A stretch of 64,000 nucleotides of DNA, from positions 7,125,484 to 7,189,483 of the forward strand of contig JABAKD010000029.1 of the NCBI GenBank assembly GCA_012845835.1. The letters are read 5' to 3'. Under the pieces are notes generated by a model. It was not told where the DNA came from. It was given only the letters and a program-made list of their open reading frames with translations, and did no database searches. The position numbers and the translations under genes are program-made. Source of the DNA: Undaria pinnatifida. Its lineage: Eukaryota > Sar > Phaeophyceae > Laminariales > Alariaceae. Of the stretch, positions 19,965-54,305 are shown piece after piece. Every line of letters begins with the position of its first letter. The stretch's first letter is position 1.

Positions 19965-21752
19965 TTACACCGGCTGCACCAGGTCCATGATGAAGTTCTC
20001 GCACCCCCGGAAGTACACGTTGACAGCCTTACCGAAGGCCTCCGCATCGGCTTCCTTGATATGCACTCCGCCTGGCAGGACGACGCCGCCCTCCTCCACC
20101 AGCCCCGCCACCTCCCCCCGTTTCTCGCCCGCCTTCCCCGCTTTCGCGTCTCGACTCCACGAAGCGCGTTTTCTCATCCGTAGCACATCGAGGATCTTGG
20201 AGAAATAAGTCGGGTTACAGTCGATCACGCGCCCCCCGTATTCGTCTTTGTCTTTGCCGCTGCCTGGCCACCTTTCTGCGTCGAACATGGCGGCGAGGGC
20301 GGAGCGTGGGCAAACCTGCAGAGTGGAGCGCAGCGTTGTCATCCTCGTCCCACGCACGTTGAGCTCCACGACGGTATCCTGCTCGCCCGCCGCAACGCTT
20401 GGACCGTACATGGTGTTGAGGGCATCAGCAGCAGCGGATACCCTAGCCCCGGCCGTTTCCATTTCCTTTACGGCACGGTCGAGAACCACCCGCTCCTCCA
20501 TCAGCGAGCTTGCGATGATTTCGCCGAACAATCGGATATCGGGGGCCTCCATGTCGGTCAAAGTATCTCCCGGTTCGGTGGTGCCGAGCGCAGTGGTGGA
20601 AGGTGGGGCTGGCGTCGAGTAGCGATAGACCTCAACATCAATGACCCTTTTTCCATCCAACGCCAAGAAAGGGGAACCCTCCTCGACATCAAACGCTTTC
20701 CGCCTTGTGGTCAAGGTATAGTTCCCCGTTGTCCCGTCCAAGCACGTGAACAAGCCGTTCGCGCCGACGCAGGCACCGTGCCTCTCATTCAGTGTGTATC
20801 TTTGTCCCACCTCTTTGGGGAAGGGCTTCCACTTGGAGGGTTTGAACACGTCCTTGCGGGTGGCAGCGCCGTTCTTGAGCATGAACAAAAACGTCTCCGC
20901 GGCAATGGTTTGCTTGCTCCCAAGACCGCTACCCCAGGGGAGAATAGAGTAGCCTCCAACAACGCTGTCGTCGTCGACTCCCTCGCCCGAACTCACCCGG
21001 ATAAGGGAGACTACGTGGGATTTGATGTCCTCCTTGCCCCCAGGTGTGAACAACTTAGTGTCGAAACCGTCCCGGGTCGCGCGGTAGATGAGCGTCATGT
21101 CCTCAGTGGAGCCTCCAACCCACTCCCGAATCTTGGCAGCAAAAGGCGCGATTTCAAACGGCTCCAGTATGGTGCTGGCTCCATTCATGCTCGGGTATTT
21201 GGAACTCGTCGGGACAGACCCCGGCAGTCTCATCACGTGTGCAGTGTAAATAAGGCACGGTACCTCGTCAATAGCCACCGTCGAATGCGCAGCATTTTCC
21301 GACACTCTCTTCGCTCTTTTACTCGCGCGGCCCGCGGCGCCATTAACCGTCGAGTCTCGAAGCATGGTGTGCATGATGTGTTTGATGCACGCAGGGGACT
21401 CGTCGAGCACGATGCGGCCGCTGGCGTCTCTGGGAATAAGATCTTTGCCCCAGACTCCCTCGAGCAAGGCAAACAGAGTTGAATCCTCGAACCCCTCAGT
21501 CTCCGCGAGGAGATGCAAGGACACGGTAACGTTCGTGCCGCCGACATTCAGTTTAACCGCGCCTTCGTCGCTGGTACGGGGGCTGAGTCCTAACTTCGCC
21601 ATGCGCTCGTTAACCGCAACCCATCCTTCTTTAAGCCTTTCCCACGACGCGTCCATGTCGGCCCTCCTGTGCTGCAGGAGTCGCACTACCGGCTGAGCGT
21701 ATTCATCGGCCGACGTCGGGAACGCATCCCTCATGTTCAACCGCCGACGCAT
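19965..21752 (-). CDS. BTB(T1)-TLDc-BTB(T1) protein, family member 1 (intact, single exon)
   Basis: Single-exon gene of 595 residues starting ATG at 21752. Residues 10-55 are a charged helical lead. Residues 64-132 form a T1-type BTB domain (VKLNVGGTNVTVS..., then PRDASGRIVLDESP and IKHIMHTML). Residues 195-378 match a TLDc domain: LIYRATRDGF at 221-230, VVGGYSILPW at 264-273, ETFLFML at 286-292, ACVGANGLFTC at 327-337 and the closing IDVEVYRY at 371-378. Residues 405-448 are helical. Residues 459-531 form a second T1-type BTB (VVELNVRGTRMTTLRSTL, then GGRVIDCNPTYFSKILDVLR). BTB domains oligomerise and often recruit cullin-3; TLDc proteins act in oxidative-stress resistance and V-ATPase control. 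Both are family knowledge; the role here is unknown. The start is supported by the paralogue at 41847-43640, which aligns from the same methionine. About 30 bp past the stop, a GTGAGTT word is conserved in both genes and may be a 3'UTR splice donor. Confidence 0.9.
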   Translation of the reverse strand: MRRRLNMRDAFPTSADEYAQPVVRLLQHRRADMDASWERLKEGWVAVNERMAKLGLSPRTSDEGAVKLNVGGTNVTVSLHLLAETEGFEDSTLFALLEGVWGKDLIPRDASGRIVLDESPACIKHIMHTMLRDSTVNGAAGRASKRAKRVSENAAHSTVAIDEVPCLIYTAHVMRLPGSVPTSSKYPSMNGASTILEPFEIAPFAAKIREWVGGSTEDMTLIYRATRDGFDTKLFTPGGKEDIKSHVVSLIRVSSGEGVDDDSVVGGYSILPWGSGLGSKQTIAAETFLFMLKNGAATRKDVFKPSKWKPFPKEVGQRYTLNERHGACVGANGLFTCLDGTTGNYTLTTRRKAFDVEEGSPFLALDGKRVIDVEVYRYSTPAPPSTTALGTTEPGDTLTDMEAPDIRLFGEIIASSLMEERVVLDRAVKEMETAGARVSAAADALNTMYGPSVAAGEQDTVVELNVRGTRMTTLRSTLQVCPRSALAAMFDAERWPGSGKDKDEYGGRVIDCNPTYFSKILDVLRMRKRASWSRDAKAGKAGEKRGEVAGLVEEGGVVLPGGVHIKEADAEAFGKAVNVYFRGCENFIMDLVQPV

Positions 21753-21793
21753 GGTTCCTGGCTGTGTTGTGTCTTGCTGAAAGCTCGCTCAAG

Positions 21794-21931
21794 TGTGGAC
21801 AGCTACTCGTAGCCGTGCTGGAAGCCGAGCGCGAGGGAGACGTGCTAACCCCAGACCAAAAGTTCGGACAGCTTCTCGCAGCCGTGCTGGAAATCGCGCC
21901 TAGAGAGAAGTGCTCCAACCCCAGACCCAAG
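21794..21931. repeat. 69 bp tandem duplication just upstream of BTB-TLDc-BTB gene 1
   Basis: Two adjacent copies share CGGACAGCT-CTCG-AGCCGTGCTGGAA and GTGCT-AACCCCAGACC. It lies 40-180 bp upstream of the ATG, so it falls in the likely 5'UTR or promoter. No TATA box was seen. Confidence 0.8.
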
Positions 21932-21988
21932 CCTCTGGTAGTCAATGAGGCCCTAGACCGATAGCCTCTTTCTTCTTTGCTCTGTCGA

Positions 21989-22078
21989 TTAACCCCTTTA
22001 GAGCCCCCGAACCCCTCCCTATACTAAATCCAACTAATTTTGTCCCCAAAAACGGGGTTCCAGTTGTAAAGGGGTTAA
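21989..22078 (-). mobile_element. TTAA-flanked mini-element, copy 3
   Basis: 90 bp from TTAACCCCTTTAGAGCCC to GTTGTAAAGGGGTTAA, both TTAA ends intact, with the internal CCCTCCCTATACTAAATCC and TTTTGTCCCC blocks. It is the best-preserved copy and the only one not clearly inside family A. Confidence 0.85.
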
Positions 22079-22689
22079 GCACGCCAGTCCCGACCGTGGT
22101 TGTAAGCACGTGGACGGGAGAGAATCTCTAGGTGGTTGTCTTCCCCATGGTGCTGGTATGTGCCTGCCACAGAATACCAGCAATATATCGGACACCAGCA
22201 CTATTGGATATTATTGTTGAAACTGGTACTAGAACTGCATTGCTTCAGTAGTCGGCACTATGAAGCATGTAGGCACTATTGAAAACGGCACTATAGGGGA
22301 ACCCCTGCGGTACGTGTAACCGTAACGCTTCTAGGAAAAACTGAAACCCTTCCCCCTGCCGCTGCTGCGATCAGAGGGCAAAGGGCAAAGGATCAAAGGG
22401 TACCATTTGACTGCCATCAAGATATTCTTTCAACCTGAGGCTATAGGGGACAAGGGACAAGGAATGCTCCATGCCCGACTTCTGCACGGTTTCAGCGCTG
22501 TAGGATTATCTGGGGGAATTCAGGATGTGAGTCTGTAGGTTGCATAACCTGGCATTGGCCGTGTCAGTCACGCGTCCCAATTTCCAACACAGAACATGGC
22601 GGATTTGCACTATGATATCGGTATCACTCTGTTGGTATCGGATTGGCACACTCCCGTCCTGTGTGTGCTGCTGTTGCTGTACGATCACG

Positions 22690-23040
22690 TGTTTTCCTGA
22701 GATATAGCGTACCGCGGCAGCCATGCGGAGCAGCAAAGCAGTACTGCGTGGCCCGCCGCACCTGTGTTATCATTTTCCTGCAACGATACTTGTAGTGCTT
22801 CTAAAGCCGTCATGTCCGCATCCAAAGTAGAGCGGTACGCGTGGCAAACGTCGAGAATATCGGAATATCCCAAGCTGGATCCATCGCGAGGTAGGGTTGC
22901 AAGTTGCAAGATTCCAAGGGCAGTGAAGGGTTCGTTTAGCAGAGCAGGATGGCAGGGTACCGGTAGGAGTACCGAACCAGCCATCAGAAGACTACCGTTA
23001 GGCCTGCTCCTTGTAACGGTGCGCGGGTATCGTCGAAAGC
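22690..23040 (-). CDS. Coding-like segment, unidentified (low confidence)
   Basis: The minus frame contains a smooth, repeat-free stretch (ALGILQLATLPRDGSSLGYS, then ILDVCHAYRSTLDADMTALE and ALQVSLQENDNTG) that could be an exon or an old element's ORF. The open frame continues rightward only by running through a poly(A) tail and into the duplicated block at 23164, so the long frame is chimeric. No family was recognised; the opposite strand is also open. Confidence 0.25.
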
Positions 23041-23084
23041 GCCAGCTTGCCTTGCTTGCGCCGCTTTTTTTCAAGCATCGAGTA

Positions 23085-23150
23085 GTCGGCTGATGTATGC
23101 TGCTCGTATAATTTTGCCCATCCGCCGGAGGATAAAAAAAAAAAAAAATA
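23085..23150 (+). mobile_element. Poly(A)-tailed retroposon 3' end
   Basis: ATTTTGCCCATCCGCCGGAGG is followed by an A run at 23131-23148. The last ~16 bp before the tail are the same as in the SINE-like copy at 4917-5259, but the sequence further upstream is unrelated. Confidence 0.55.
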
Positions 23151-23163
23151 CCTGGTACTTCCA

Positions 23164-25427
23164 TAAATCTATATATCTTATTAGTTCGCTTATCACATAT
23201 GCACATCCTTACGTCTGCGGATATCTCCCGCCTCTGACCGCCTTTCCGCGCGGTTTCTTCGCTGAGGCGTGCCCCCGCCTCGCCTGCAACCACCGGCTCA
23301 GCTGATCCGCCCGCTCGGCGCCGTAGCGCGCGCGCGAGGCCTCGACGTCGAGATCTACGACGAGATCTCCGAAAAATCGTGCCCTGTGAGACGATTGGTG
23401 CGTAGTCTGCACACAGTGCTAATGTCTTCGCGTTATTTCTTCGGTACGTGTTCTCTGACCTCCGACACACGGGGGGTCGATTACCTGGTCGGCGTCGCCA
23501 TTGTAAAGGCCACTAAGCGAGGTTTGTGCTAGGATCTGGGGAAGAAAAGTTCGTAATCCCCGAGAACACATGCCACCCAGGCGTAGTGGAGAACTGCGAA
23601 CTCTCCATATTTTTGAACCCCCGGTAGTCTACAGCAGCACGTATACATGTACATGATGTACAGCAGTAGCTGAAGCTATGATGAGCCTGCAGCATCACGA
23701 AGCTACAAATGGTATATGCACAGCAGCATCACGAAGCTACAAATGGTATATGCACAGCAGAATCACGAAGCTACAAATGGTATATGCACAGCAGCATCAC
23801 GAAGCTACAAATGGTATATGCACAGCAGAATCACGAAGCTACAAATGGTATATGCACAGCAGCAGCTAGGCGTCGTGGAGAACCGCGAACTCTCAATATT
23901 TTTGAACCCCCGGTAGTCTACAGCAGCACGTACATGTACATGATGTACAGCAGTAGCTGAAGCTATGATGAGCCTGCAGCATGACGAAGCTACAAATGGT
24001 ATATGCACAGCAGCATCACGAAGCTACAAATGGTATATTCACAGCAGCAGCTGTGGCCGCGCCTTTCTGCGTAGCAACGCAGAGCGTCACCCAGCTGGGG
24101 TGAACCGCCATGCTCTCCCATAATTTCCAGGCTGCCTTCTCGCATTGTTCCGCCGCACACGGGAAATCGGGAAAAATTTGTCGGCATTTTCCCTTTCCAG
24201 TATCTCCCATACATGAATTAACAAACTTCGTCTAACTCTTGGCATTACTTCTTACCCTCTTAATATTTAGTATCCTGCGCTGCGACCGGCGGCCGTCCAG
24301 GCCGCCGGCGTAGCCCCTTGTAAATCTATATATCTTATTAGTTCGCTTATCACATATGCACATCCTTACGTCTGCGGATATCTCCCGCCTCTGATCGCCT
24401 TTCCGCGCGGTTTCTTCGCTGAGGCGTGCCCCCGCCTCGCCTGCAACCACCGGCTCAGCTGATCCGCCCGCTCGGCGCCGTAGCGCACGCGCGAGGCCTC
24501 GACGTCGAGATCTACGACGAGATCTCCGAAAAATCGTGCCCTGTGAGACGTTTGGTGCGTAGTCTGCACACAGGGCTAATGTCTTCGCGTTATTTCTTCG
24601 GTACGTGTTCTCTGACCTCCGACACATGGGGGGGGGTCGATTACCTGGCCGGCGTCGCCATTGTAAAGGCCACTAAGCGAGGTTTGTGCTAGGATCTGGG
24701 GAAGAAAAGTTCGTAATCCCCGAGAACATATGCCACCCAGGCGTAGTGGAGAACTGCGAAGTCTACAGCAGCACGTATACATGTAACATGTACATGATGT
24801 ACAGCAGTAGCTGTAGCTATGATGAGCCTGCAGCATCACGAAGCTACAAATGGTATATGCACAGCAGCATCACGAAGCTACAAATGGTATATGCACAGCA
24901 GAATCACGAAGCTACAAATAGTATATGCACAGCAGCAGCTAGGCGTCGTGGAGAACTGCGAACTCTCAATATTTTTGAACCCCCGGTAGTCTACAGCAGC
25001 ACGTATAAATCAGCAGCACGTACATGTACATGATGTACAGCAGTAGCTGAAGCTATGATGAGCCTGCAGCATCACGAAGCTACAAATGGTATATGCACAG
25101 CAGCATCACGAAGCTACAAATGGTATATGCACAGCAGGTATATGCACAGCAGCAGCTGTGGCCGCGCCTTTCTGCGTAGCAACGCAGAGCGTCACCCAGC
25201 TGGGGTGAACCGCCATGCTCTCCCATAATTTCCAGGCTGCCTTCTCGCATTGTTCCGCCGCACGCGGGAAATCGGGAAAAAATTGTCGGCATTTTCCCTT
25301 TCCAGTATCTCCCATATATGAATTAACAAACTTCGTCTAACTCTTGGCATAACTTCTTACCCTCTTAATATTTACTATCCTGCGCTGCGACCGGCGGCCG
25401 TCCAGGCCGCCGGCGTAGCCCCTTGTA
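23164..25427 (+). repeat. 1.1 kb tandem duplication (R1 23164-24321, R2 24322-25427)
   Basis: Both units start AAATCTATATATCTTATTAG and end GCCGGCGTAGCCCCTTGT, and are nearly identical outside length changes in internal minisatellites. A 67-residue minus frame (23209-23412 and 24366-24569; contains VVDLDVEASRARYG and ERADQLSRWLQARRG) is preserved in both units, but identity this high may just mean the duplication is recent. The other strand is open too. No transposase or other known domain was recognised. Confidence 0.85.
23693..23862 (+). repeat. 34 bp minisatellite inside R1 (five units)
   Basis: The unit is a CATCACGAAGCTACAAATGG word followed by TATATGCACAGCAG. Two more units lie at about 23980-24047. 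R2 holds three units near 24833-24935 and two near 25069-25136, so unit number differs between the duplicates. Confidence 0.9.
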
Positions 25428-25429
25428 AA

Positions 25430-25582
25430 ATTAAAAATACACTCCAGCTGTGAGATCAAATATTTTGTCGAAACTCATTTGCAAGCTGTGTGATATCGTA
25501 CTCCGATCGCGCGTATTACGGGTTGTGTGATAAGGATATAGGTCGGCGACTCCCCTTGCATCTACAGTGTAGCTATCAGGTA
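25430..25582 (+). repeat. Dispersed repeat family C, copy 2
   Basis: ACACTCCAGCTGTGAGATC, ACTCCGATCGCGCGTATTAC and GATATAGGTCGGCGACTCCC match 7797-7972 closely. Confidence 0.7.
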
Positions 25583-26175
25583 TATGCTGCAGCAATGCAC
25601 TCACTCGCTCAAAACGTTGTTCCGGTACCAGATACCCGACTCTGTGATACATGCTTTCGCTGGAAACACGTGGCCGCTGCCCTAAAAAAACACCAACCAA
25701 AAACTTTGCTGCTGAAATGGAAAAAAAAAGCGCATCTTCCGCGCTAAAGAGTACAGCAAAAATTACGGCCTTCACCCGCGTGCTCTGTCTTGCATTGTGT
25801 GCGACGTTTGGGCGTCCTCTTGCGCGGCGCATCGCGCGCAGAAGCCGTCCAGCTCCACACCCGGGAGGATGAACCAACACAGTGTGCAATCCATTTTTTT
25901 CAGGTTATCCCCCATGCACAACAGGACATCGCTGAGGGTATTCGTTGCAACGCGTGACGAATCTAACTTTCGAGACTGTCAGTAGGCACGTGATGGTTAC
26001 CCCCCTGAGACCCACGATTTTGCTGAAAATCCACCCAGAATTAGTGTGGGACAGTTTTGTTCGCGGCGGCAAGGGCTAAGGAAGTAGTCTAAGCTGCTAC
26101 AAGCAGTTCCAGATACCCCCGTTGGTCGCGTCGTAGTGTTCGGTATCGGTCCCCTTTGCGAGTCATGTGCTATTC
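25583..26175. other. Gene-free stretch with a short block shared with 34550-34690
   Basis: Around 25850, CCAGCTCCACACCCGGGAGG followed by ATG resembles 34637-34660. The similarity is short, and no function is suggested. Confidence 0.45.
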
Positions 26176-26179
26176 GTGG

Positions 26180-26550
26180 AGGCGGGAGTCTACAACCACA
26201 TAGTGTGTTTCCAGCTGCTGACAGGATTGGCGCATGGGCTATAGGGCTAGGGTGGGCCTTGGGGCGGGGCTAGGGCCGGTGCTGGGGCTGGAGCTGGGAC
26301 TGCGACCGGGGTTGGAACCGGGACTGCAGCTTGTCTTGAGGCCGGGGCGCAGATGTCGTGGTGTCCTGCGCGGAGGGTTTACATACTATGGGCAGGGCTT
26401 GAGCTGTTGGAATGTTAAGAGGTTGTGAGATGTCTCAGGATGATAATGCCTCTTCCACATGTGGAAAACTGTCAAGAATGTGCAACCAACCTGGTGTCTA
26501 TCGGTGCCACTCGCCCGAAAAAAGGAAGCCAAGTCCCACACGTGGGCACA
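26180..26550 (+). repeat. Dispersed element M, copy 1, short G-rich core
   Basis: Left flank GTGTTTCCAGCTGCTGACAGG and right part CAACCTGGTGTCTATCG with CGAAAAAAGGAAGCC match copy 2 at 34995-35745. Between them is only about 105 bp of GGGCTGGAGCTGGGACTG-type hexamer-like repeat. Confidence 0.7.
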
Positions 26551-27176: not shown

Positions 27177-27260
27177 GACGCGTGCTACGATAGAGTTAGC
27201 GCTTTTTGGCCATTTGTTTTTTCAGTGGCCATGCTCCTCAACCCTGTACCTTGTTTTTTT
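27177..27260 (+). mobile_element. Family A left-end fragment
   Basis: GACGCGTGCTACGATAGAG followed by a worn TTTTTTCAGTGGCCATGCTCC. It is cut off by the SINE-like copy that begins at 27262. Confidence 0.6.
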
Positions 27261-27261
27261 T

Positions 27262-27615: not shown

Positions 27616-27664
27616 AAAACTGCCTTCCGCCGAACTCGGTCCAGTTACGGTCCACCCTACCCAT

Positions 27665-32044: not shown

Positions 32045-32076
<32 letters not shown>

Positions 32077-36078: not shown

Positions 36079-36909
36079 AGGGCTGTTAGTCGGCTTCATT
36101 TCACGACTAATGATTAGTCGCTAGTCGGCGAAGCCGACTAGCTGACTGTCGAGATGATGACCCGAACCATCTTGCTCGTGAAGGGCTGGACGCCGTCCAT
36201 GTAGGCAATGATGCTCCCCGCACCTTTCTCGCTCGAGGCCCTGCCACTGCCCGCGCCCTTGCCGCCCGCTCCACGCGCCTCGTGTTCTTTCAGGGCCTCG
36301 CGATGCCCTTTCCTCTTCTTCGTGTCTAGATGCTGCCTCGAACGGGTAGGGGACCCGAACCTAACCTCGGCATCGGCAAAATCACCGTTCGCCTCGCAGA
36401 GCTTGCACACGGCTATGCCAGGGAGCGAGTCCTTGAGGTAAGACCATGAAAACTTCCACAGCGGGTTGTTGGATCTGAGCGGCTTGCTCCGCCTCTGCTC
36501 ATGCTTCACGCGGTAGAGCACCATTTCGGGGTCGCGCGCATTCGCCAGGGTGGTCCGCGGGCCGATAATGGCCACAACGTCACCGACGGGATCTCCGGCC
36601 CTCAGCGTTGGCATTGGGTGTGCCAGCGCTGACGCCGTCGGCACCGTCGAGGGAGAGATGGGCTGTTTCGCCATGTGTGCGTGTGTGTGTGTGTGGATCT
36701 CCCGCTGTGCGCTGCAGTGTCACAGAGGGCATGCGAGGGGTATCCGCAGCCCGCAGCAATTCACGTTTAAGGCTGTACCCCGCATTAAATAAGCCTTCCT
36801 ACAGTTAAGGAAACCCAATAAGTCGGATAGGCGGCACCTCCGTTTCACGACTGACTATTAGTCCGACGAATAACTTGTCGGCGACTTACGTCGTGCCGAC
36901 TCACAGCCT
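36079..36909 (-). mobile_element. hAT-type DNA transposon remnant with BED-finger ORF
   Basis: Ends are GGCTGTTAGTCGGC and GCCGACTCACAGCC, a terminal inverted repeat with further GACTA/TAGTC words just inside each end. At about 830 bp it is far shorter than an autonomous hAT element (2.5-4 kb) and has no catalytic domain. An element internally deleted to its first coding segment fits best. Confidence 0.65.
36138..36674 (-). CDS. BED-type zinc-finger protein, transposase N-terminal fragment
   Basis: Open frame of 178 residues with an ATG at 36674. Residues 70-125 look like a BED finger: an aromatic patch (PLWKFSWSYL, 71-80), C90 and C93 in AVCKLC, then H115 and H124 in RQHLDTKKRKGH. The spacing between the two histidines is wider than usual for BED, so the match is moderate. 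BED fingers sit at the N-terminus of hAT transposases and bind the element ends. The frame then becomes Gly/Ala/Lys-rich and ends IISTVS, running into the terminal repeat. The hAT dimerisation domain and catalytic residues are absent. Confidence 0.55.
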   Translation of the reverse strand: MAKQPISPSTVPTASALAHPMPTLRAGDPVGDVVAIIGPRTTLANARDPEMVLYRVKHEQRRSKPLRSNNPLWKFSWSYLKDSLPGIAVCKLCEANGDFADAEVRFGSPTRSRQHLDTKKRKGHREALKEHEARGAGGKGAGSGRASSEKGAGSIIAYMDGVQPFTSKMVRVIISTVS

Positions 36910-37092
36910 TATTATTTTCCCAAATGTTCCTCTTTCTTTTCTTTTTTTCTAAGGAAACCCAATAAGTCGGATAGGCGGCACCTCCGTTTCACGACTGACT
37001 ATTAGTCCGACGAATAACTTGTCGGCGACTTACGTCGTGCCGACTCACAGCCTTATTATTTTCCCAAATGTTCCTCTTTCTTTTCTTTTTTT
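36807..37092. repeat. 144 bp tandem duplication at the hAT element's right end
   Basis: Positions 36807-36950 and 36951-37092 are essentially identical. Each contains the inverted-repeat end and about 40 bp of flanking sequence, so the duplication happened after the element had inserted. Confidence 0.95.
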
Positions 37093-37094
37093 CT

Positions 37095-41846: not shown

Positions 41847-43640
41847 TTACACCATCTGCACCAGACTCATGATGAAGTTCTCGCACGCGGGGAAGTACAT
41901 GTTGACGGCTTCGCCAAACATCTCTGCATCGGCCTCCTTGATAAAAACTGCACCCGGCGGCACACAGCCGCACTCCTCCCCCCCCTCTTGCGTAGCTCCT
42001 GTCGTCGCGCCTCGACTCCACGATGCGCGTTTCCTCATCCGAAGCACGTCGAGGATCTTCGAAAAACATGTCGGGTCACAGTCAATCAACCGCCCCCCGT
42101 GTTCGTCTACATCTTTATCGGTGGCTGGCCACCTGTCCTCGTTGAACATGGCGGCAAGGGCGGAGCTCGGGCAAGCCTGAAGTGTGGAGCGCAGTGTTGT
42201 CATCCTCGTTCCATGTACGTTGAGGTCGACAACGGTATCCTGTTCGCCCCGCGCCACGCTCGGACCATACACGGTTTGGAGGGCGCCCGTAGCAGCCGCT
42301 ACCCTTGCCTTAGCCCCTTCCATCTCCTTTACGGCGCGATCGAGGACCACCCGCTCTTCCATGAGCGAACTCGCGATTGTCTCGCCGAACGACCTGATGT
42401 CTTGGCATTCACATTCGTTCAGAGCATCTCCACCCGGATTGGCGGTCCCGGGCGCGGTCGTCTTGGGTGAATATTCTGGCAGACTCGAGCAGCGATAGAC
42501 CTCGATATCAACAACTCTTTTGCCGTTCAACGCCAAGAATGGGGAGTCCATGGCGATATTAAAAGTTTCCCGCCTCGTCTCTATGGTGCAACCCTCCGGG
42601 TTTTTGCTGAATTTTGTTATCAGGTCTCCCACGCCGAAGCAAGGACCAGCGTTCGTGTTTAGGAGTATGCGCGGCCCTTTGTATGTGCCATCCACGGGTT
42701 CATACTTGATGGGTTTGTATAGATCCTTCCGGGATGAAGTGCCGTCCTTGAGCAAGAACACGAACGAAAGCTTCTCGGCATCGGGAGACCATTCCGGAGA
42801 CGTACCGGCGGGTTCATCCCAAGCCTGGTTACAATATCCCCCGACAATGCTGTCGTCGTCGTCGCTTCCTGGGCCCGGGCTCACCCGAATGAGGGAGACC
42901 GTGTTGGGGCTGTGCTTGGTGCATCTGCCTTTGAAGAATTTCTCGCCGAAACCGTCACGCGTCGCGCGGTAGATTAGGGTCATTTCGTCGGTCGACCCCC
43001 CAACCCACTCCCGAATCATCGCACTAAACGGAGCGATTTCAAACGGCTCCAGCATGGTGCTTCCTCCGTCAACTTTGACGTGCTTAGAGTGGGCCGGCAC
43101 GTATCCCGGCAGCCCCACCACGCACGCGGTGTACGTAAGGCACGGTGCCTCGTCGATGGCCACTGCTGAGTGCGCGGCACTTTCCGCCATTTCCTCCGCG
43201 CTTGATTTTTTTGCTGGATGGTCTTTCCGGCCTTTAGCCCTCAGCATCGTCTGGACGATGATGTGCTTGATGCACGCAGGAGACTCGTCGAGCACGATGC
43301 GGCCGTCGGAGTCTCGGGGAATCCGGCCCTCGCCCCAAACTCCCTCGAGTAAGGAACCCAGGATAGAATCTGAGAACCCCTCCGTCTCTGCGAGGAGGTG
43401 CCAAAACAGGGTAACGTTCGAGCCGCCGACGTTGAGTTTGACCATGCTCTCCTCGTCGGTTCGAGGTCTGAGCCCGAACTCCGCCATGCGCGAGTTGATT
43501 CTAGCCCATCCGTGTTCGAGCTCTTCCCACGTCTTGTTCAGTTCCGCCCTCCTGTGCTGTAGGAGCCGCCCCACCTGCCGAGCGTGATCGTCCGCCGTCT
43601 TCGGGAAGGCATCCCTTACCTTGAGGAAGCGGCGATGCAT
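41847..43640 (-). CDS. BTB(T1)-TLDc-BTB(T1) protein, family member 2 (intact, single exon)
   Basis: Single-exon gene of 597 residues from the ATG at 43640, collinear with member 1 (595 residues) from its first methionine (MHRRFLKVRDAFP here, MRRRLNMRDAFP there). Domains in order: helical lead to about residue 60; first T1-BTB (VKLNVGGSNVTLFWHLL, PRDSDGRIVLDESP); TLDc (MTLIYRATRDGFGEKF, VGGYCNQAWDE, KLSFVFLLKDG, PCFGVGDLI, VDIEVYRCSS); helical stretch; second T1-BTB (VVDLNVHGTRMTTLRSTLQ, GGRLIDCDPTCFSKILDVLR); and a C-terminal FPACENFIMSLVQ tail shared with member 1. By eye well over half of the residues match member 1. The open frame extends 75 codons upstream to 43865, but that part is largely translated minisatellite (SVLSVHCSVLSG) and is rejected as the start. 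The function is unknown beyond what the families suggest: oligomerisation or cullin-3 adaptor activity for BTB, stress or V-ATPase roles for TLDc. Confidence 0.9.
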   Translation of the reverse strand: MHRRFLKVRDAFPKTADDHARQVGRLLQHRRAELNKTWEELEHGWARINSRMAEFGLRPRTDEESMVKLNVGGSNVTLFWHLLAETEGFSDSILGSLLEGVWGEGRIPRDSDGRIVLDESPACIKHIIVQTMLRAKGRKDHPAKKSSAEEMAESAAHSAVAIDEAPCLTYTACVVGLPGYVPAHSKHVKVDGGSTMLEPFEIAPFSAMIREWVGGSTDEMTLIYRATRDGFGEKFFKGRCTKHSPNTVSLIRVSPGPGSDDDDSIVGGYCNQAWDEPAGTSPEWSPDAEKLSFVFLLKDGTSSRKDLYKPIKYEPVDGTYKGPRILLNTNAGPCFGVGDLITKFSKNPEGCTIETRRETFNIAMDSPFLALNGKRVVDIEVYRCSSLPEYSPKTTAPGTANPGGDALNECECQDIRSFGETIASSLMEERVVLDRAVKEMEGAKARVAAATGALQTVYGPSVARGEQDTVVDLNVHGTRMTTLRSTLQACPSSALAAMFNEDRWPATDKDVDEHGGRLIDCDPTCFSKILDVLRMRKRASWSRGATTGATQEGGEECGCVPPGAVFIKEADAEMFGEAVNMYFPACENFIMSLVQMV

Positions 43641-43787
43641 GGATGGCCCTTCGTCACCAGTTGCGTGAACAGTCGCTGTCTTGCTGCTGCGTGTCTTCGG
43701 CAGATCTAAAGCTCGAGCAGCAACCCGGGAGAGATCCGTGATGGAACTCGCGCCAGAGGAGGTAAGAGTAGCACGAAGCAGTGAAAA

Positions 43788-43985
43788 CCGACCGCTGAGC
43801 ACTGAGCAATGGACACTGAGCACTGAGCACTGGCCACTGGGCACAGAGCACGGAACACCGAGCACTGAACACTAAGCAACTGTGTCCCCGCCCAATAACT
43901 TAAGACCTAGCAATGACCACCGAGCACTGGGCATTGCGCATTGGGCTCTAGGCAACCAGTGAGCACTCTGGCAGGGGCAAGAGAC
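43788..43985. repeat. 7 bp-type minisatellite (ACTGAGC) upstream of BTB-TLDc-BTB gene 2
   Basis: GAGCACT/ACTGAGC words repeat through 43788-43875 and again, degenerate, at 43915-43985. It lies 150-350 bp upstream of the preferred ATG and so falls in the promoter or 5'UTR. Confidence 0.85.
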
Positions 43986-44234: not shown

Positions 44235-44239
44235 CTGCC

Positions 44240-45899: not shown

Positions 45900-48500
45900 A
45901 CGGATTATTTACTGTAGAACAACTTAAAAGCGTTGTTGCTATTAATGGTAAGTTGAATGGCTTCTGCTGCTTCGTGGTTACGGATGGTTGGCTGCTGCTT
46001 GCTGATTGCTAAAAGTGCTTGTCCCGTGAGCGAAGCGTACGGCAGTAGTAGTACATTATACGTCGTCTACAGCACAGCACTCGTAGGCGAGCATAGGCTT
46101 GGAGTAAGTTGGGTCACGTCATTGGCGAGCTTTAAACGAAAAAAAATGACGTGGATTCGTACTCGTGTGGAAGTAGGAATCAGGACTGCTGCTGAGGAGA
46201 CAGATCTTGCCCATCTGGTGACGGTACGAGTGACGGCACGAATACCGGTAGTTGCGGTCGCGAGGTCGATCGACCGAGCCACACGGCGCGAGCGAACGCA
46301 ACCGGGAACTGTCGACGACTCCGTAATATGTACCAATATCCCTGCTCGCATTTAATGATACCAAAAAGTACGAGATTGTATGGGTGGAACAGTTGCTCGT
46401 GCTCGCGAGTGCGTACCATGTGATATACACAAGTATCATCAAAGAGGATTGCTCTAGATTTATTGGGGACATATCCTCTGTGCATGCACATTTTTTTTCG
46501 TTTTATCTGCACCCCAGTCGCTCATCCCGCGACGCCCGCCTCACCGATTCGATCGAGATCAAAACGCCGATATGTTTTTTGTCGCACGGAATCCTTGAGT
46601 CCCCCAGAAGCACGAGCCGCCGCGCTTCGCGACACTCGTGTGGCGGCTCTTGTGCGTTTTTGGGTGAACTACGGGTCACAAGCGACAAAAATATGACCAC
46701 AATCGCTGTACGAACGGCATAGACTACTAACTACACTATAAACTCATGTGGGCTGGTCGGTGTTACCTGCCGGGTTCACTTGCACGGTGGCTGAATAGTT
46801 TTTCGCTAGTTTTCGAAACTTTCCTCGCCTGCTTTTTTCACCTTAGAACACCCACCGGATTCGGAGCCGACCACATCCCGGAGCGGAACCTTGTGTACTC
46901 GTACCTGTTACGATCACAACATTATTCATTCGTCACGAATTCAAAGGTATTATAATCATTTCTACGGGATCTCTCCTCGAACGATTGTTTTCTGATCTCC
47001 TCCAGTGACCACCGCGTGCCAGCGAAGAGGTGTGAAAACAAAGGACACCTCGACGTTGTGTCTCGCTCTCTCCCTGATTGTGTACGCCAAAAGCCGCAGC
47101 GATACCCCCTTTTTTCCGTTCTTTAACATGCACGGAGACCAAAAAGCGCTGCCGGGTGCGAAGATACACCGTGAATTGTGATTTTTGAGTCATTATCGAG
47201 GTTGAGGAGCCAGTTAGCTCGGTTTTGGCGTGCTCGTTCCGCGCTGAGCGTGGGCCGGGCTCAGCGTGGTGCGAAACGACGATTTTAACCCATTTTGTTG
47301 CTCACGCTCCCGACCCGCCATGAAAAACAGGACTGAAACTTCCGGAAACGGCCCAAGTGCAAGACCCTACTATAAATAAACCAAACAAAGACACCATCAC
47401 CATCAACTCCAACACCAACGAAGACACGAAACCACTTATTAATAAGAGCATTTCGTTTAGCTTTGATAAGAGTGCCCGTCGTAGATCAAGGAAGTGTTCT
47501 TCGGGTACCATCAAATGCAAGAGCTGCCCTTCTTGCAGTTTAACGCTCTTGCGCCTCTCAAAGGGGCAACGACCGTATCCCCGTCATGGGTTCAGGTAGT
47601 GAGGTCTAACAGGCGGTGCCCCGTGTTGGCGCGTTCACCTGGTAATTTTTTCGGAGTGACCGTACTAAGAGCGACCCACGATGTACGCAAAAACCTACGT
47701 ATTCCATTGTTTTTGCTAACGATATTTGGTCCTGAGTAATAGATTCCCCCCCCGTAAACAGGCGTGCAGGTTGTTTGAGAAATTGCTCGCCCACAGCACG
47801 TGCGTTCTCATATTCCGCAGAGCCTTATTCAAAATGTTGTTGGTTTCCTTCTGCACGCAGGCAGGCCAAAGCTGCAGGAGAGGAAGCTGCGCAAGAACAT
47901 GACTTCATGCGAAAGAAAAGCAGGAGATGAGGCGAGAGCTGACACATACTGTCGGAGGCAAGGTAAAACCTGTTTTCAGGGGCGTGTTGGGGTCAAGGTT
48001 TTGGAAAGTTTCGATGACGCGCGCACTTGGTATATGGTATTAGTAGTCACAAAGTTTGAGCTGTAGAAGAACACGGTATTTCCCATGTCCGCGCCCGTCT
48101 ATAATATGCGGGATTTATGTTATTTTTAGCTTTATTTTTTAGTAACGAATTAACAATTTTTGGTGCGCGACATTTTTGAGTGACTGCATCCCGTTTTTGG
48201 CGGCACAGACTACTTGGAATTTATGTGAAATATGTTTTGAGGTCGTGTAAGGGTCAAGTCTCGCTGCCGTGAAGATGCGACACCGTTTTTTTCGTATAAC
48301 CGCCACCAGAACCCCGCTTTCTCTGCAGGTGGACGCTGGAGGTCATGCAAGGGCGTAGGGGGGCAATATACGTAAAGCGCAAGATCGGGCGACTGCGCGG
48401 AAGATCGTGCTGCGGCAGGAGAATGGTGAGAAAGCAGAGTGCTGATAATAGAACTGTTGTGGTGATTTGAGGTACTGATCTCGTCGATAGCTTACCTAAC
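45900..48500. other. Gene-poor stretch
   Basis: No exon could be supported. A plus frame at 45957-46355 and one at 47357-47599 (the latter with a KCSSGTIKCKSCPSC Cys cluster) are open, but lack homologues in the window and clear splice sites. Confidence 0.4.
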
Positions 48501-48794
48501 AAGTTGTCCGCCCGGATATTTGGGGCGGTGGCCTGATGGCGGTTTGCGAGCGCTAGGAAGCACTTCCTGGTGGGATCGAGGTACGGACGTAGACTTAACC
48601 CCTAGCACTAACCCTAACCCTAACCCCAACCCGGACCCAAAACGGGTCAGAAACGGGCGAGAAACGCGGCTGCGCCGCTTTTTTGTGTTTTTTTTTGTTA
48701 TTCCGATCTTCCGACCAGCACATAGCCCTCGGCCATTGAGAGAGCGTAGAAACTTCCCACCAAGACCCGAGCGGCCACATGGTTGAGGTGTGCT

Positions 48795-49105
48795 GCAAAA
48801 TCTTGCGGGTCAATAGGCTTCAAAATTTCGCGGGTCGGGTCGGGTCGGGTCAAGAAGAGGTTTCAAAACCTCGCGGGTCGGGTCGGGTCGGGTCAAGAGG
48901 TTTTCAAAATCTCGCGGGTTGGGTCGGGTCATGACCCGCGAGATACAGGTCACTCGCGGGTCAAGCCATCATGACCCGCGAGTTGTTTTCGGCTGACCCT
49001 CGGGTCAAGCCCGCGGATCTGGCCAGCGGATCCGCCTTTTTCACACTTGCAGCTGAGGGCCATTGCCTTGCAGGCGCCCCGCGGGTCCGACCCGCGGATC
49101 CGTAA
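48795..49105. mobile_element. Family G element, copy 2 (GGGTC-rich)
   Basis: GCGGGTCGGGTCGGGTCGGG runs followed by CAAGA and TTTCAAAA recur three times; the right part holds GACCCGCGAG and GCGGATCCG words. The terminal CAGGGCTTTTC repeat was not found, so it is degenerate or partial. Confidence 0.5.
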
Positions 49106-49306
49106 ATCATACAAAAGTTACCGCTTCCTGCCTCTCTCGTGCCGATGCTCCGATTAGATATGCCATCACAGCGTGTAGAGCAATCACCAGGCAGTACCCC
49201 TAGCTACTCGTACCAAGGCATGAAGAGTGACGCGAATCCCGTGCCGGCTGAAGCCGTAGCAGTAGTAGTAGTAGTAGTAATAAGGTGATACCAGTGGTAC
49301 GATTGT

Positions 49307-49762
49307 GACCAAACGTAAAAAGGCAAGGGCAGTCGTCGTCGAAGCAGCAGCAGCAGCACTGGCAGCAGCAAGCACCAGCAGCATATTCCGGATTCTCGCG
49401 GATCACAGCCCTTGCTGACAGATCCACCGTCCCAGTTGTGGGCTCGCTGCCGGAGACGGCTCAGCTAGGCTACTTGCCGGGGCTGGAGACTGCATAGTAG
49501 ATAGATAGATAGAAGATAGATACATAGCTAGCTCGAGAACTATCATATCAGTACCAAATGTGACCAAGCGTAAAAAAGCAAGAGCAGTGTCGTCGTCGAA
49601 GCAGCAGCAGCAGCAGCATTCTGGCAGCAGCAAGCACCAGCAGCAGCAGACAACGCATCCTCGCGGATCGCAGCCCCTGCTGACAGACCCACCACCCCAG
49701 TTGTGGGCTTGCTGCCGGAGGCGGCTCAGCTAGGCTGCTTGCCGGGGCCGGAGATTGCACTT
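49307..49762 (+). repeat. ~200 bp CAG-containing unit in two direct copies
   Basis: Copies at 49307-49500 and 49562-49762 share CCAA-CGTAAAAA-GCAAG, GTCGTCGTCGAAGCAGCAGC, CCCAGTTGTGGGCT and CGGCTCAGCTAGGCT-CTTGCC. A TAGA/GATA run at 49497-49530 lies between them. The second copy stays open as KRKKARAVSSSK followed by Gln residues. Confidence 0.8.
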
Positions 49763-50029
49763 ATAACTTATAACTAGCTCGCTCGTCGGGTCGCTCGTCG
49801 GGTTGATCCGGTGGTCAAGCGGTACGGGCGTGGCTAGTTGCCAGCGCGTGGGGGTTGCGTTTTTTTTCTCATTTTTCGCGCGCACATCACCAAATAAATG
49901 ATGATGCAAACAATAATGCCGGTAGAAAGAGCCGTAGAGCACGACATCCTGGGAAAGTACGAGGGACCAAGAACCAACCAACCGACCGACGTATGACAAG
50001 TGACTTTTCGACTTTGACCGGTGAGAAAC

Positions 50030-50192
50030 GTCACGGGTCGAGTCGACCTGACCCGCATGAAACCCGCATCTCGCGGGTCACCCGGATTGTTGCGGGTCGG
50101 GTCGGGTCGGGTCGGGTCAGGTCGGCTACCCGACCCGACCCGACCCGACCCGACCCGACCCGCGAGATTTGACCCGACCCGTGAAAAGCCCT
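50030..50192. mobile_element. Family G element, copy 3, with (GGGTC)n/(GACCC)n hairpin
   Basis: GGGTC repeated four times at 50093-50115, a short spacer, then GACCC repeated six times to 50160 form a long perfect-looking stem. The right end CCGTGAAAAGCCCTG is the same terminus as at 4881. Confidence 0.65.
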
Positions 50193-50199
50193 GATTTTC

Positions 50200-53100
50200 C
50201 AATCGCTATCGTACGTATAGCTGAAACGTCAATATATCATTTCCCGCCCGGCCCAGGTGCATCCTTTGAAGCAAAAGGTGCATTGACAAATCTTTCGTAG
50301 ATAGTTAAACGGTACCAGGCGCTCCGTATTGCGCGTAGCCACCACTTAGACGCCCAGCATGGGCCGAACTGGGCCCTTTGGGATTGGAGACGGGCGTAAC
50401 TGAATAGTGGACTTGTTTTGGCTTCTTTTTAAGCATGATAGGGATGCCACCACACGTGCCTTTTTCGCTTACTCTGAAAGGTTCGACAACCCCATGAGTG
50501 CTACGTGTGTAAGCTCCGCTATATTTTTCATCGCGCAGTTCGGTTTTCTCGGACGTCCTCTATCCTGACACGCACGTGTCCTAGAAGTGCCGCATTATAA
50601 AATGTATGGGAACAAACTGAACAATACCATAGCACAGGCTAGCAATAAGATCGAGGCATACCTCTGCGTACCAAGTATCAGCGCATATGATAGGCATCGG
50701 CACTTAAAATAGTTACAGAATTGTACTAATCTGGTGGGGGGTCACCTCCCACGATTCGTTTTTTTCTGTTCATCATCATTTTCGTCATCACATTTACTTT
50801 CCAGCTTAACTCGTAACAAGCTTTACTTACCATCAGCGACCTTCCGGACAAGCCGTGGCCACAGACCCCGGTACGTGGGGCCTTCACTTTTATCGCGCAT
50901 AGGGTTCAGCAATCTCACTGTTTTATCAGCTATTTCTTGTCGATTTTTGATCATTTTTTGCTAGCTCAGGCTCTCTCTCGCACTTTCCGTTAGATCTGTA
51001 CTCTTCAATGGTGTCGAAAAGCTTAGAGGTGTCATACACCTCACTTGCAACTCCCCCCCTCCCCGCGTCCGTGAACGTTTTTTTTCCAGCAACAAGACAA
51101 ACCGCAACCGCACAGTCTGCTGCCGGCTACCAGTGATTGCACTGGGGACGTCGCCACAACAGAGAGGGCAAGTATTCTCTTCGGCGTTTTCTTGGCTCTT
51201 GACTCCTGGTCCTCGGACGAACGACAACCAAGCTGATCGGCGACGGAGAGGAGGAGGAGGAGGAGGAGGAGGAGGAGGCTGCCGAGGAGCAGCAGGTACG
51301 AACAGAAAGGTGCGCAGCATTTCCTGAAGTATAACCTCGTCTTCTCAATAAGTGTAATCACACCCCAATATATTATGTATGATGGCGTCGGCGCCCCGGA
51401 TGGAGTAGGTAGGTGAAGCTCGTCCGTGCTAAAGCCAAAGGTCGCGGGGTGAATTAGGTTTCACTGAGTGCATAGTGCTCGAGCAGGGATTTTTTTCCTG
51501 CGATAACTTGACGCGCGGAAAGCGCGAGTTAATAGCAGAATTCGATGAAAACCGACGAGCATGAAAATAGCTGAAAGGTGGGGATGCGTAGCCTTTTTAC
51601 GCGCGATAAAAATGAAAGCAGGTACCGGGGGGGGGGGGGGGGGGGGGAAGGGACGACACCCAGAAGATCGCCGAGGGTAAACCCCCTATGTTATGATGAG
51701 AGTTGAGTTGGAAAGTGAAAGTGATGTGACTTGAAAAAAAAAAAGAAGAAAAAAGCGCTGCAGTGCTGTCTGCGGTGCTGTTTGAGCCCTAGGTTTAGCA
51801 TGCGAGCAACTGCACGAGTTTGTTCTTGCCTTTTTATCACCGACCTTGATCACGAAACTTGCCCTTTTGCCATTCCACTAGGAATTTCAAGCCGCGAGAG
51901 CGGCCTGGACCACAGACTGCAACACCTTCGTATCGCATAGTTCGCTAGATATTCCGTAGTACCTTATTTGGGATATTTACAAGCTCCAGCCCTGTCACGC
52001 GTTCTGCTCGGCGTTTCTGCGTTATCTCTCGCACCTCGTTGCACAGAGCTCTTTGAGGCCCACGCCTTGGGGGACAGCCGGGGCATGACAGGGCATGACC
52101 GACCTGTGGTCGGCGTGTACGCCAGGACGTCACTGAAGGCATTCCGTGCAGTGCTTGACGGTTCAAGTCCTGAGACAAGAGAACGTTGTATGAAAATATG
52201 TTACAAGTTCAACTCCTGCAATCGATCACATTGTTGTGAAAAACTTCCCGCAGCTGGGCAGTTCGCTGCTACCTCGGCGGCTATTTTTTTTCTTCGGGTT
52301 AGGGTGTTAGGGGTGGGCGGACCCGTATATGTATTGGTATTGGTTGGCCGTTTTTCCAAAAGATCTTCGTTCTGCCACAGAACGACGTCCCTTGCAGGCG
52401 CGTCTCCGTGTTGGTGCTGTTGTTTTTATGGGTTTTGTAGTGTGGTTGGGTGGATCGTCTCTGTTGCAGTCTGGATTGTACAACCGCAGCCGGCGCAGAC
52501 CAAACGTGGGTGGCTGGAGGTTTTCACAACGAGCGAGCACAAATAGAAAGTTGTGGGATCACACGTACACTCCAGCCCGTTCGTAAACGTATGACACTCC
52601 CTCGCGGAGCCGTGTATCTGGTACTGGGGTTTTGTGGATGATACAGGTGGGGGACCATTGCTGATGTTGACATAGAGTGCCTTTTCAGCATGATGAAGCG
52701 ATTACATACTCCTAGCTTTTCGATGGAGGGGGAAAGGTGGGGGAAAAACCGCGCCGCATCGCACCGTGACAAAGCTCTCGTTTTTCTAGACCTCAAGGCC
52801 TTTTTTCATCGTTTGTAGGCTTGTACATAGGAGTCGGAAGGTGCGTTTCGGCGCGGATTGTTATTTATACTCACCGAACCGCGCCGCGCCTTAAGAAAAA
52901 GCCGTGCCGTGAAAACCCTTGATGCATTCAGATTCTTCAGCCGATCGCCCTGCATCGCCACATGAGGCGTGGCCTGTGCTTGTTGTTTTCGTGTGAAACC
53001 GTTCTGAACGGCGTCCAGTACGCCCCGTGGTCCGACATAATCTGTAAGCAATGGGTGAATAGTGTCAAATATTATCAATGAAGGAGCCTGGAAGAAGAGC

Positions 53101-53700
53101 GAACGAGCGAACGAGCGAACGAGCGAACGACCGCAGCAGAGTGAAATAATAGGCACGCTGTGTATACTTCGAAGTAGAAGGTTAAGCGGCGTTCCTAGCG
53201 ACACGTTGCAAAATACCTGGTACATATTTTTTGGCGTGTTGCAAGTTTTCGGCAGGTTTTTGTTTCTAAGTGTCCAAATAGCAAATCATATAGCAAAGAG
53301 CTAATCAAATTTCTTCATATACTTACCCGCGAAGCACCAAAAAAATATGTACGAACTTTTTTGTCAAATATCTTGTTAACACTTGTCAAGCCCACTTTTT
53401 TATTCAAGCTTGCTAAATATGTCGTTAGACACGGCCCTTAGCCTCAAATATAGCCAAAAACACATGACCGTCGAACATAATGCGTACGCAGACATATGTA
53501 TGTATGATGTGTGCTCGGGATATTTTCTGACATGAACAGGTGCAGAGCATGTTTGTTGGCCAATCGCAGGGCGAGTGGGGTAGTCTAAACTATGGGTTTT
53601 ACTTCTCAAGAAGAGTGTTTGCCTTTTTGGCTCCAAACGGACCGGGTATACCTTGACAATTGTGCGTTTTTTTCCTATTTTGATCAAAAATTATAACACG
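50200..53700. other. Gene-free stretch with simple repeats
   Basis: A GGA run lies at 51246-51280, and a pure G tract of about 22-26 at 51627-51648. GAGCGAAC is repeated at 53098-53130. No exon or RNA gene was recognised; the GGTTCAAGTCC at about 52166 lacks a T-arm stem. Confidence 0.45.
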
Positions 53701-53704
53701 GTGC

Positions 53705-54305
53705 TGCCACCCCCCAGTTATTCTCACGCATCCAGGATGCGCTGGTACCCATTCCGGCGGTCCCAACACGTACAAGTATGCGGTGTAAATAAGGCACGGG
53801 AACTCGTCAATAGTCACCGCCGGGCGCGGCGCAACTTCCGGCTGTCCTTCCGCGAGTGCTATTATTTATACACTACTGAAGAATAACTCGACCCGCCATT
53901 CATTGAGCATCGCGTGCATGATGTGCTTGAAGCACGCAGGCGACTCGTCAATCACGATGCGGCCGTCGGCATCTCGAGGGACGCGACCCTTGTCCCACAC
54001 TCCCTCGAGCAAGGCAAACAGCGTATAATCCTCAAACCCCTCCGTCTCTGCCAGGAGGTTCCTAAAGACGGTAACGTTTTCGAGCCGCCGACGTTTAGCT
54101 TGATCATGCCTTCCTCGGGGTTTCGAGGTCTGCGCCCGATCTCTGACAGCATATGGTCCAGTGTTTGCTTTCCATCCCACTTTGAGCTCTTCCCATGCCG
54201 CGTTCAGTTTTACCCTCTTGTGCTGTAGGAACCGTGCCACCTCCCGAGCGTGCTCGTCCGCCGACTTCGGAAAGGCACCCCTCAAACCTTCAGGAACTGC
54301 CGAAG
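53705..54305 (-). pseudogene. BTB-TLDc-BTB pseudogene, family member 3 (5' third only)
   Basis: The sequence follows members 1 and 2 from their N-terminus (FLKV, then GAFPKSADEHAREVARFLQH and AAWEELKVGWKA) through the first BTB (MIKLNVGGSK, NLLAETEGFEDYTLFALLEG, DGRIVIDESPACFKHIMHAM) and then IDEFPCLIYTAYLYVLGPPE to about 53705. There is no ATG at the aligned start. A TGA replaces the Arg codon after FLKV. The reading frame shifts near 54155 and shifts back near 54085. Sequence around 53870-53900 is replaced or deleted. The TLDc core and second BTB are missing. It lies in the same orientation as the two intact genes, about 10 kb to the right of member 2. Confidence 0.9.

Follow-up and report, generated by a model that had tools for sequence, protein, structure and literature searches.

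A TLDc domain between two BTB domains, the first divergent, in a small gene family of the brown alga Undaria pinnatifida

What kind of protein places a TLDc domain between two BTB domains, and what might such a protein do? This question is raised by a stretch of 64,000 nucleotides from the genome of Undaria pinnatifida (hereafter the window), which carries two intact single-exon genes, g1 (19965..21752, minus strand, 595 aa) and g2 (41847..43640, minus strand, 597 aa). The products of both genes share one architecture: a helix, a divergent BTB domain, a TLDc domain, a further helix and a BTB_2 domain. As a sequence-only reading had proposed, each gene is a single open reading frame (ORF) that runs from aligned start codons through to the stops, and the two proteins are 60% identical over 609 tblastn columns (63% in an alignment). 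A third copy on the same strand (53710..54285), described earlier as a truncated member, is indeed decayed. Inspected by eye in three frames, it lacks a start codon, contains a TAA and changes frame within its BTB core, and it encodes N-terminal sequence only and not the whole architecture; tblastn found neither a TLDc domain nor a second BTB domain beside it.

A search of the host genome (511 Mb) identified six members of this family, three intact and three broken. The third intact gene, g3 (C36:7005299-7007194, plus strand), lies on the window's own contig (C36), approximately 138 kb from the window genes and on the opposite strand. The same contig carries a C-terminal fragment (C36:6983867, plus strand), and a further copy, on contig C13, is split by a long terminal repeat (LTR)-type element. 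When the N-terminal and TLDc parts were compared by tblastn with the DNA upstream of these last two copies, nothing convincing emerged beyond the known pieces. The initial impressions of three genes in this interval, all on the minus strand, were therefore effects of the window, as g3, the C36 fragment and the C13 copy lie outside it and the first two of these are on the plus strand. All three intact frames are intron-free and encode 595-631 aa. The evidence for g1 and g2 as genes is their conservation and not ORF length, since a 678-residue stop-free frame without a Pfam match occurs elsewhere in the same window. Six other ORFs of the window contain no Pfam family over its cut-off.

The C-terminal BTB domain is the most readily assigned part of these proteins. 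Its core is the best-kept region of the family (79-83% identity among g1, g2 and g3) and exceeds the curated cut-off of Pfam PF02214 in each intact copy (36.4, 39.6 and 40.3 bits in g1, g2 and g3, respectively, versus 21.4), so the BTB_2 match expected at the C-terminus of both window proteins was found. In g1, the core spans residues 459-529 (20166..20378, minus strand), with the Pfam match covering residues 462-526 (E 6.9e-9), and in g2 the domain spans residues 471-535 (42036..42230, minus strand; Pfam E 6.7e-10). A profile of this domain matches KCTD16 and KCTD5 with E values of 6e-10 and 6.7e-9, respectively. It is preceded by a segment (g1 residues 402-455; 20388..20549, minus strand) that is helical in a low-confidence model and 70-78% identical among the three intact copies. 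The C-terminal tail that the sequence-only reading had singled out as conserved (g1 residues 557-595; 19968..20084, minus strand) is indeed 54-72% identical among the copies, but it is better read as candidate helices A4-A5 of the C-terminal BTB than as a separate element. The BTB_2 match stops at position 62 of the 94 in the Pfam profile and, according to PMC1257465, the A3-A4 connection varies among BTB folds. The tail thus probably completes the last BTB domain as its second half, following a variable A3-A4 loop (g1 residues 530-556) that separates it from the BTB_2 core.

The N-terminal BTB domain is considerably more divergent. Its core, which appears to be of the T1/KCTD type, occupies residues 64-133 of g1 (21354..21563, minus strand) and residues 65-135 of g2 (43236..43448, minus strand), and it is absent from the Pfam listings of whole-protein scans of both. 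Scanned alone, the domain gives E values of 0.12, 0.057 and 0.056 in g1, g2 and g3, with scores (13.2, 14.2 and 14.2 bits) that lie below the PF02214 cut-off of 21.4. Nevertheless, all five matches (E up to 10) to its profile in the structural database (PDB) are BTB proteins, with E values of 0.016-0.96. When the N- and C-terminal BTB cores were compared with hhalign, the score was 30.5, whereas nothing above 14.1 arose when the columns were shuffled 150 times, and a further run gave a probability of 75. In a Foldseek search with a poor model (pLDDT 40), 48 of the best 50 of 160 rows carry titles naming KCTD, Kv/Shaker, POZ or BTB, two of these being a designed BTB fusion, whilst none of the 160 rows reaches an E value of 0.001. 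Taken together, the profile, profile-profile and fold evidence, weak but concordant, suggests that this domain is a divergent BTB. A further proposal, that the whole helix-BTB module was duplicated within the chain, was rejected, as the helices by themselves show no resemblance (114 of 150 shuffles give a score at least equal to theirs); relatedness is therefore claimed for the BTB cores only. Residues 7-148 of g1 do align to the helix-BTB region of the C36 fragment, with 22.5% identity and an E value of 0.004 when composition correction is switched off. Of the three domain matches anticipated from sequence inspection, the TLDc and C-terminal BTB_2 domains were thus recovered, whilst the N-terminal BTB stays under the Pfam cut-off; the BTB-TLDc-BTB order itself is upheld in g1, g2 and g3, with the first BTB divergent.

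The anticipated TLDc domain in the middle third of the protein is present, spanning residues 195-378 in g1 (20619..21170, minus strand; Pfam match 215-376) and residues 217-384 in g2 (42489..42992, minus strand). The PF07534 cut-off of 24.5 bits is exceeded in two of the three intact copies: by g2 as a whole protein (29.7 bits, E 7.1e-7) and by g1 when the domain is excised (26.0 bits; 22.1 bits and E 1.6e-4 in the whole protein). The domain of g3 falls below it both in the whole protein (18.6 bits) and excised (21.8 bits). A TLDc profile searched against the PDB returned seven chance matches and no TLDc chain. The domain is 63% identical between g1 and g3, and 51 and 47% in the comparisons with g2; only in the latter is it the least conserved domain. 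Two glycines, placed by eye in the first loop and in the FGG turn through comparison with the other TLDc exons of this genome, are kept in all three copies and probably correspond to G815 and G845 of Ncoa7. The position that by eye matches Ncoa7 S817 is D, G and D in g1, g2 and g3, respectively, and the glycine-rich bend of the domain is poorly kept. G815, S817 and G845 were used here as the residues of a V-ATPase-binding TLDc domain, on the basis of PMC8608904. Together, the changed serine position and the poorly kept bend imply that V-ATPase binding may have been lost.

Comparison of the intact copies supports long-term purifying selection in the past, as the sequence-only reading had suggested. 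The dN/dS ratios lie well below 1, at 0.330 for g1-g2 (578 codons, bootstrap 0.25-0.42), 0.395 for g1-g3 (584 codons, 0.33-0.50) and 0.393 for g2-g3 (580 codons, 0.32-0.49), with dS values of 0.63-0.81 between the intact pairs. However, the broken copy of the window also has low ratios, of 0.18 against g1 (64 codons), 0.38 against g2 (59 codons) and 0.24 against g3 (59 codons), so that a low ratio is by itself no proof of present function. The C36 fragment and the C13 piece form the sole pair of broken pieces with a ratio near 1 (0.78; 71 codons, 0.47-1.52). These low values in a broken copy, coupled with the breakage of three of the six members, could be taken to mean that the intact ORFs are themselves recently silenced copies, all heading towards decay. 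This scenario is very improbable given three stop-free frames of 595-631 aa at a dS of 0.63-0.81. In neutral simulations, with substitutions only and 300 runs per gene, 1.3, 0 and 1.0% of runs for g1, g2 and g3 remained free of stops at 0.1 substitutions per site, and 10.7, 6.7 and 3.7% at 0.05. Neutral drift beyond approximately 0.1 substitutions per site is therefore unlikely, the argument losing its force below that value.

The idea that the copies arose by duplication followed by repeat invasion is also supported, with some copies lost by truncation and by mobile-element insertion: an LTR-type element sits within the C13 copy, and a related element borders the start of the C36 fragment. 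The spacing of the genes in the two arms of the locus is similar (about 21.4 and 21.9 kb). An inverted duplication of a gene pair was considered and rejected, as a quartet tree joins g3 to the C36 fragment and not the pairs that this would require; support for this grouping is weak (ultrafast bootstrap 77, 180 codons). The longest blastn matches of the C36 fragment speak on the other side of this question, being 81.9% identical over 436 bases for g2 and less close, 76.9% over 559, for g1. The single exon, the repeat-rich surroundings and the LTR-type elements adjoining broken copies might alternatively reflect a gene borne through the genome by a virus or mobile element. In the C13 copy, however, the element breaks the gene, and no relative was found in viral contigs or prokaryotic genomes by insensitive short-pattern scans, which exclude only close relatives, or in phage records by tblastn with g2. 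We regard such an origin as very improbable.

How might such a protein work? The C-terminal BTB, perhaps together with the preceding helix, could form a small ring-like oligomer, by analogy with the KCTD proteins, described in PMC10856315 as prevalently pentameric, and with the Kv T1 domain. AlphaFold models built from two or three sequences were poor (pLDDT 31 and 40). The N-terminal BTB would supply a second, different contact site, for self-association or for a partner, so that both BTB domains together may gather several TLDc domains into a single particle. These TLDc domains would be the working heads, with the V-ATPase or a complex related to it as their most likely docking site, as for TLDc proteins of animals and yeast (PMC8608904, PMC11066047 and PMC11094088). 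In this way the protein may regulate the assembly or the location of the proton pump multivalently, perhaps during stress. The domain order (with the weaker first BTB), the copies, the past selection and the breakage of three copies are read from the sequences themselves; for the complete proposal, of a TLDc-displaying BTB oligomer scaffold that regulates the V-ATPase multivalently and whose genes were duplicated and in part lost, we would put the probability at roughly 0.4. A more elaborate version, which we consider distinctly improbable, envisages a lineage-specific double-ended scaffold in which two different BTB rings per chain would arrange TLDc heads into a cage or lattice. Such a scaffold would regulate the V-ATPase multivalently, would have no counterpart in animals, fungi or plants, and would keep its assembly parts fixed whilst the TLDc head changes in g2 at least among the paralogues.

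Two other functions merit consideration. In the first, one BTB domain would bind cullin-3 (Cul3) and the TLDc domain would recruit a substrate for ubiquitination. The best profile match of the N-terminal BTB is the Cul3 adaptor BACURD1 (4uij, E 0.016), and PMC4498158 places the BTB protein BTBD6 among the proteins bound to the TLDc protein Oxr1 after H2O2 treatment, but in the alpha2-beta3 loop of the printed alignment this N-terminal domain exceeds BACURD1 by three residues. The C-terminal BTB can be aligned gap-free with KCTD16, which is validated as not binding Cul3; in its alpha2-beta3 loop (placed by eye) this C-terminal domain has two residues more than KCTD5 and carries an invariant proline (P496). 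In PMC10856315, non-binding is ascribed to a long loop in KCTD8/16 or to a proline in KCTD1/15. The earlier guess of a Cul3 link thus appears unlikely for the C-terminal BTB, on account of its gap-free match to KCTD16 and its proline, a verdict that does not extend to the N-terminal BTB; an adaptor role for the protein as a whole also seems unlikely. The stress-adaptor part of that earlier guess is likewise conjectural. The second possibility is a regulator resembling KCTD1 or NCOA7, in which a BTB oligomer and the TLDc domain would serve oxidation resistance or transcription independently of V-ATPase or Cul3. A link between TLDc proteins and oxidative stress is described in PMC7702705 and PMC8608904, and KCTD1 is described in PMC7618933 as an atypical member and transcriptional repressor. 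This alternative draws on general family knowledge only and is likewise doubtful.

The individual domains of the proposed scaffold have familiar relatives. TLDc joined to one BTB domain is known; such proteins have the same domain partners, and g1-g3 add a second BTB across the TLDc domain. OXR1, NCOA7, TBC1D24 and mEAK7 share the middle domain (PF07534, over its cut-off in g2 and in excised g1), which in g1-g3 is internal and divergent, and below the cut-off in g3; none of these four proteins is known to carry a BTB domain. The C-terminal BTB is of the same type as those of the KCTD and Kv T1 proteins (KCTD16, KCTD5 and KCTD9; PF02214), and the N-terminal BTB weakly so. PMC10856315 places the BTB of KCTDs in the N-terminal region, whereas g1-g3 have one at each end with TLDc between, and, unlike in KCTDs, their C-terminal BTB seems to be interrupted by a loop of low complexity. 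More than one BTB per chain also occurs in KCTD19 (PMC10856315) and in the RhoBTB proteins. In the latter, according to PMC1257465, two adjacent BTB domains of the long form come after a GTPase domain, TLDc not being part of the architecture described there. No account of TLDc with BTB in brown algae, or as a domain architecture, was found in the literature covered, which lies mostly outside subscription journals; excerpts on algal TLDc mention no BTB partner, and among the matches listed for papers naming both domains, the excerpts describe no protein carrying both. Judged from this partial literature, and with the host genome as the sole eukaryote compared, the arrangement of these known domains may be new.

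Should this architecture prove common in brown algae or beyond, its identification here would become ordinary annotation. The family also offers a view of live genes alongside fragments and alongside a copy that a mobile element has split. TLDc proteins are now viewed as V-ATPase regulators and, if the proposed working is true, a TLDc domain set between two oligomerising domains would represent another way of controlling the proton pump, in a probably multicellular lineage far removed from animals.

The genes g1 (21752-19965, minus strand, 595 aa) and g2 (43640-41847, minus strand, 597 aa), which encode a TLDc domain (Pfam PF07534) between two BTB domains, are both open from ATG to stop, and their start codons align. 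The proteins are 60% identical by tblastn and 63% by alignment, and the likeness of the DNA begins ~20 bases past the ATG and extends ~60-70 bases beyond the stop. Compared by eye, the in-frame sequence 5' of the ATG is dissimilar among the copies, which supports the choice of start codon and, as the sequence-only reading had proposed for two intact genes, a coding sequence in one exon. The open frame of g2 extends a further 231 bases upstream of its ATG, across a 7/14/21-base repeat (43777-43878), and this extension was not counted as coding. The window, with a G+C content near one half, also contains a 144-base unit in two tandem copies (36806-37094) that, as these match at 100%, represents a recent duplication, and a single 34-base unit in four arrays separated by other sequence (23689-25152). 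A stop-free, simple-repeat-rich frame of 678 residues (57282-59318, plus strand) matches no Pfam family at E 0.1 and could be either an exon or a product of chance.

A search of the genome (511,146,479 bases, 68 contigs) with g1 and g2 recovered three intact and three broken copies. The third intact gene, g3 (631 aa), lies on the same contig as the window (C36:7005299-7007194, plus strand; window at C36:7125484-7189483), as does a C-terminal fragment (C36:6983867, plus strand); the family is thus not confined to the minus strand, on which all three copies first noted lie. The broken copy within the window (54285-53710, minus strand), previously described as a truncated pseudogene of the whole architecture, is indeed decayed, lacking a start codon, containing a TAA and changing frame near the first BTB strands, but it is a remnant of N-terminal sequence only, next to which tblastn found neither a TLDc nor a second BTB. 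The remaining copy, in pieces on contig C13, is interrupted where its C-terminal BTB starts by an LTR-type element of ~6.3 kb (C13:6970420-6976710; L011:4421 to L012:2210 in the fetched stretches), with direct terminal repeats of ~393 bp that are 86.8% alike and, as judged by eye, a short direct repeat on each side. On its left, the C36 fragment (in L010:1-3870) starts where a related element ends. In a six-frame genome search with PF02214 (BTB_2, the KCTD/T1-type BTB), which is insensitive as introns hide domains, all four matches belonged to this family, so T1-type BTBs may be rare elsewhere in the genome or hidden by introns. The equivalent search for TLDc picked up g2 and five further matches, none of these five on C36, and missed g1 and g3; none of the five lay near any of the six PF00651 matches, within the same limits of sensitivity.

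The predicted domain order is supported, its first BTB being divergent. The C-terminal BTB_2 exceeds the Pfam cut-off of 21.4 bits in every intact copy (g1 36.4, g2 39.6, g3 40.3), and its profile matches KCTD16 (E 6e-10) and KCTD5 (E 6.7e-9). For TLDc (cut-off 24.5 bits), g2 passes as whole protein or excised domain (29.7 and 32.2), g1 only when excised (22.1 and 26.0) and g3 neither way (18.6 and 21.8). The N-terminal BTB fails Pfam BTB_2 in g1, g2 and g3 (13.2-14.2 bits). Despite this, it is very probably a BTB: its profile, run against the PDB, matches five sequences at E up to 10, every one of them a BTB protein, and hhalign scored it at 30.5 against the C-terminal BTB core, the maximum of 150 column shuffles being 14.1. 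Foldseek points the same way, with KCTD, Kv/Shaker, POZ or BTB in 48 of the 50 titles listed from 160 matches (two of the 48 being a designed BTB fusion, and the other two rows the structure dVGAC, whose title lacks BTB). None of the 160 reached E 0.001 (best 0.044), and this support counts little alone because the query model was poor (mean pLDDT 40).

The C-terminal BTB Pfam match ends at position 62 of 94 and is followed by a loop (residues 530-556 in g1) whose length is highly variable, after which a stretch reaching the C terminus is partly conserved (54-72% identity); the g3 C terminus is ~30 residues longer. The connection between helices A3 and A4 is variable in BTB folds (PMC1257465). 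We infer that the kept C-terminal tail of the earlier reading represents helices A4-A5 of the BTB itself.

Nei-Gojobori dN/dS between intact genes was well below 1, as anticipated: 0.330 for g1-g2 (578 codons, bootstrap 0.25-0.42, dS 0.81), 0.395 for g1-g3 (584 codons, 0.33-0.50, dS 0.63) and 0.393 for g2-g3 (580 codons, 0.32-0.49, dS 0.76); four methods applied to a first g1-g2 alignment gave dN ~0.28 and dS 0.83-1.08. These values should not be over-read, since the broken window copy is likewise low (0.18, 0.38 and 0.24 against g1, g2 and g3). The stronger argument for selection is that three frames have stayed open: in neutral simulations at 0.1 substitutions per site (300 copies), only 1.3% of runs for g1, 0% for g2 and 1.0% for g3 were stop-free. 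Identities for g1-g2, g1-g3 and g2-g3, respectively, are 79%, 82% and 83% in the C-terminal BTB core, 75%, 67% and 71% in the N-terminal BTB core, 78%, 70% and 76% in the helix preceding the C-terminal BTB and 51%, 63% and 47% in TLDc. TLDc is the least conserved domain only in pairs involving g2; between g1 and g3, identity is lower than in TLDc for the N-terminal extension (48%), the segment that follows the N-terminal BTB core (54%) and the C-terminal tail (54%). The g2 TLDc (42489-42992) is further from g1 and g3 than these are from each other, which is not so for its BTB core.

Matched by eye to the probable Ncoa7 motif positions, the TLDc loop and turn glycines are seemingly kept in all three intact copies, the position of S817 is kept in none and the glycine-rich bend shows little conservation. 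In PMC8608904, the TLDc domains of Ncoa7, Oxr1 and Tldc2 bind the V-ATPase, mutation of three glycines abolishes binding by Ncoa7, and those of Tbc1d24 and Tldc1 gave no pull-down; thus, not every TLDc binds the V-ATPase alone. The C-terminal BTB aligns without gaps to KCTD16, a validated Cul3 non-binder, and its alpha2-beta3 loop carries an invariant proline, such loop features being named for non-binders (PMC10856315). A Cul3 role for this domain, as in the cullin-3 link guessed previously, therefore looks unlikely, a verdict that does not extend to the N-terminal BTB, whose best profile match is the Cul3 adaptor BACURD1 (E 0.016). BTBD6 is listed among the proteins bound by Oxr1 (PMC4498158).

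The component domains are already known, and chains with more than one BTB have precedents in RhoBTB (PMC1257465) and KCTD19 (PMC10856315); no description of a BTB-TLDc-BTB protein was found among the matches listed in a literature search. Pentamers prevail among KCTD proteins (PMC10856315). Most economically read, the proteins described here would form an oligomer presenting several TLDc heads.
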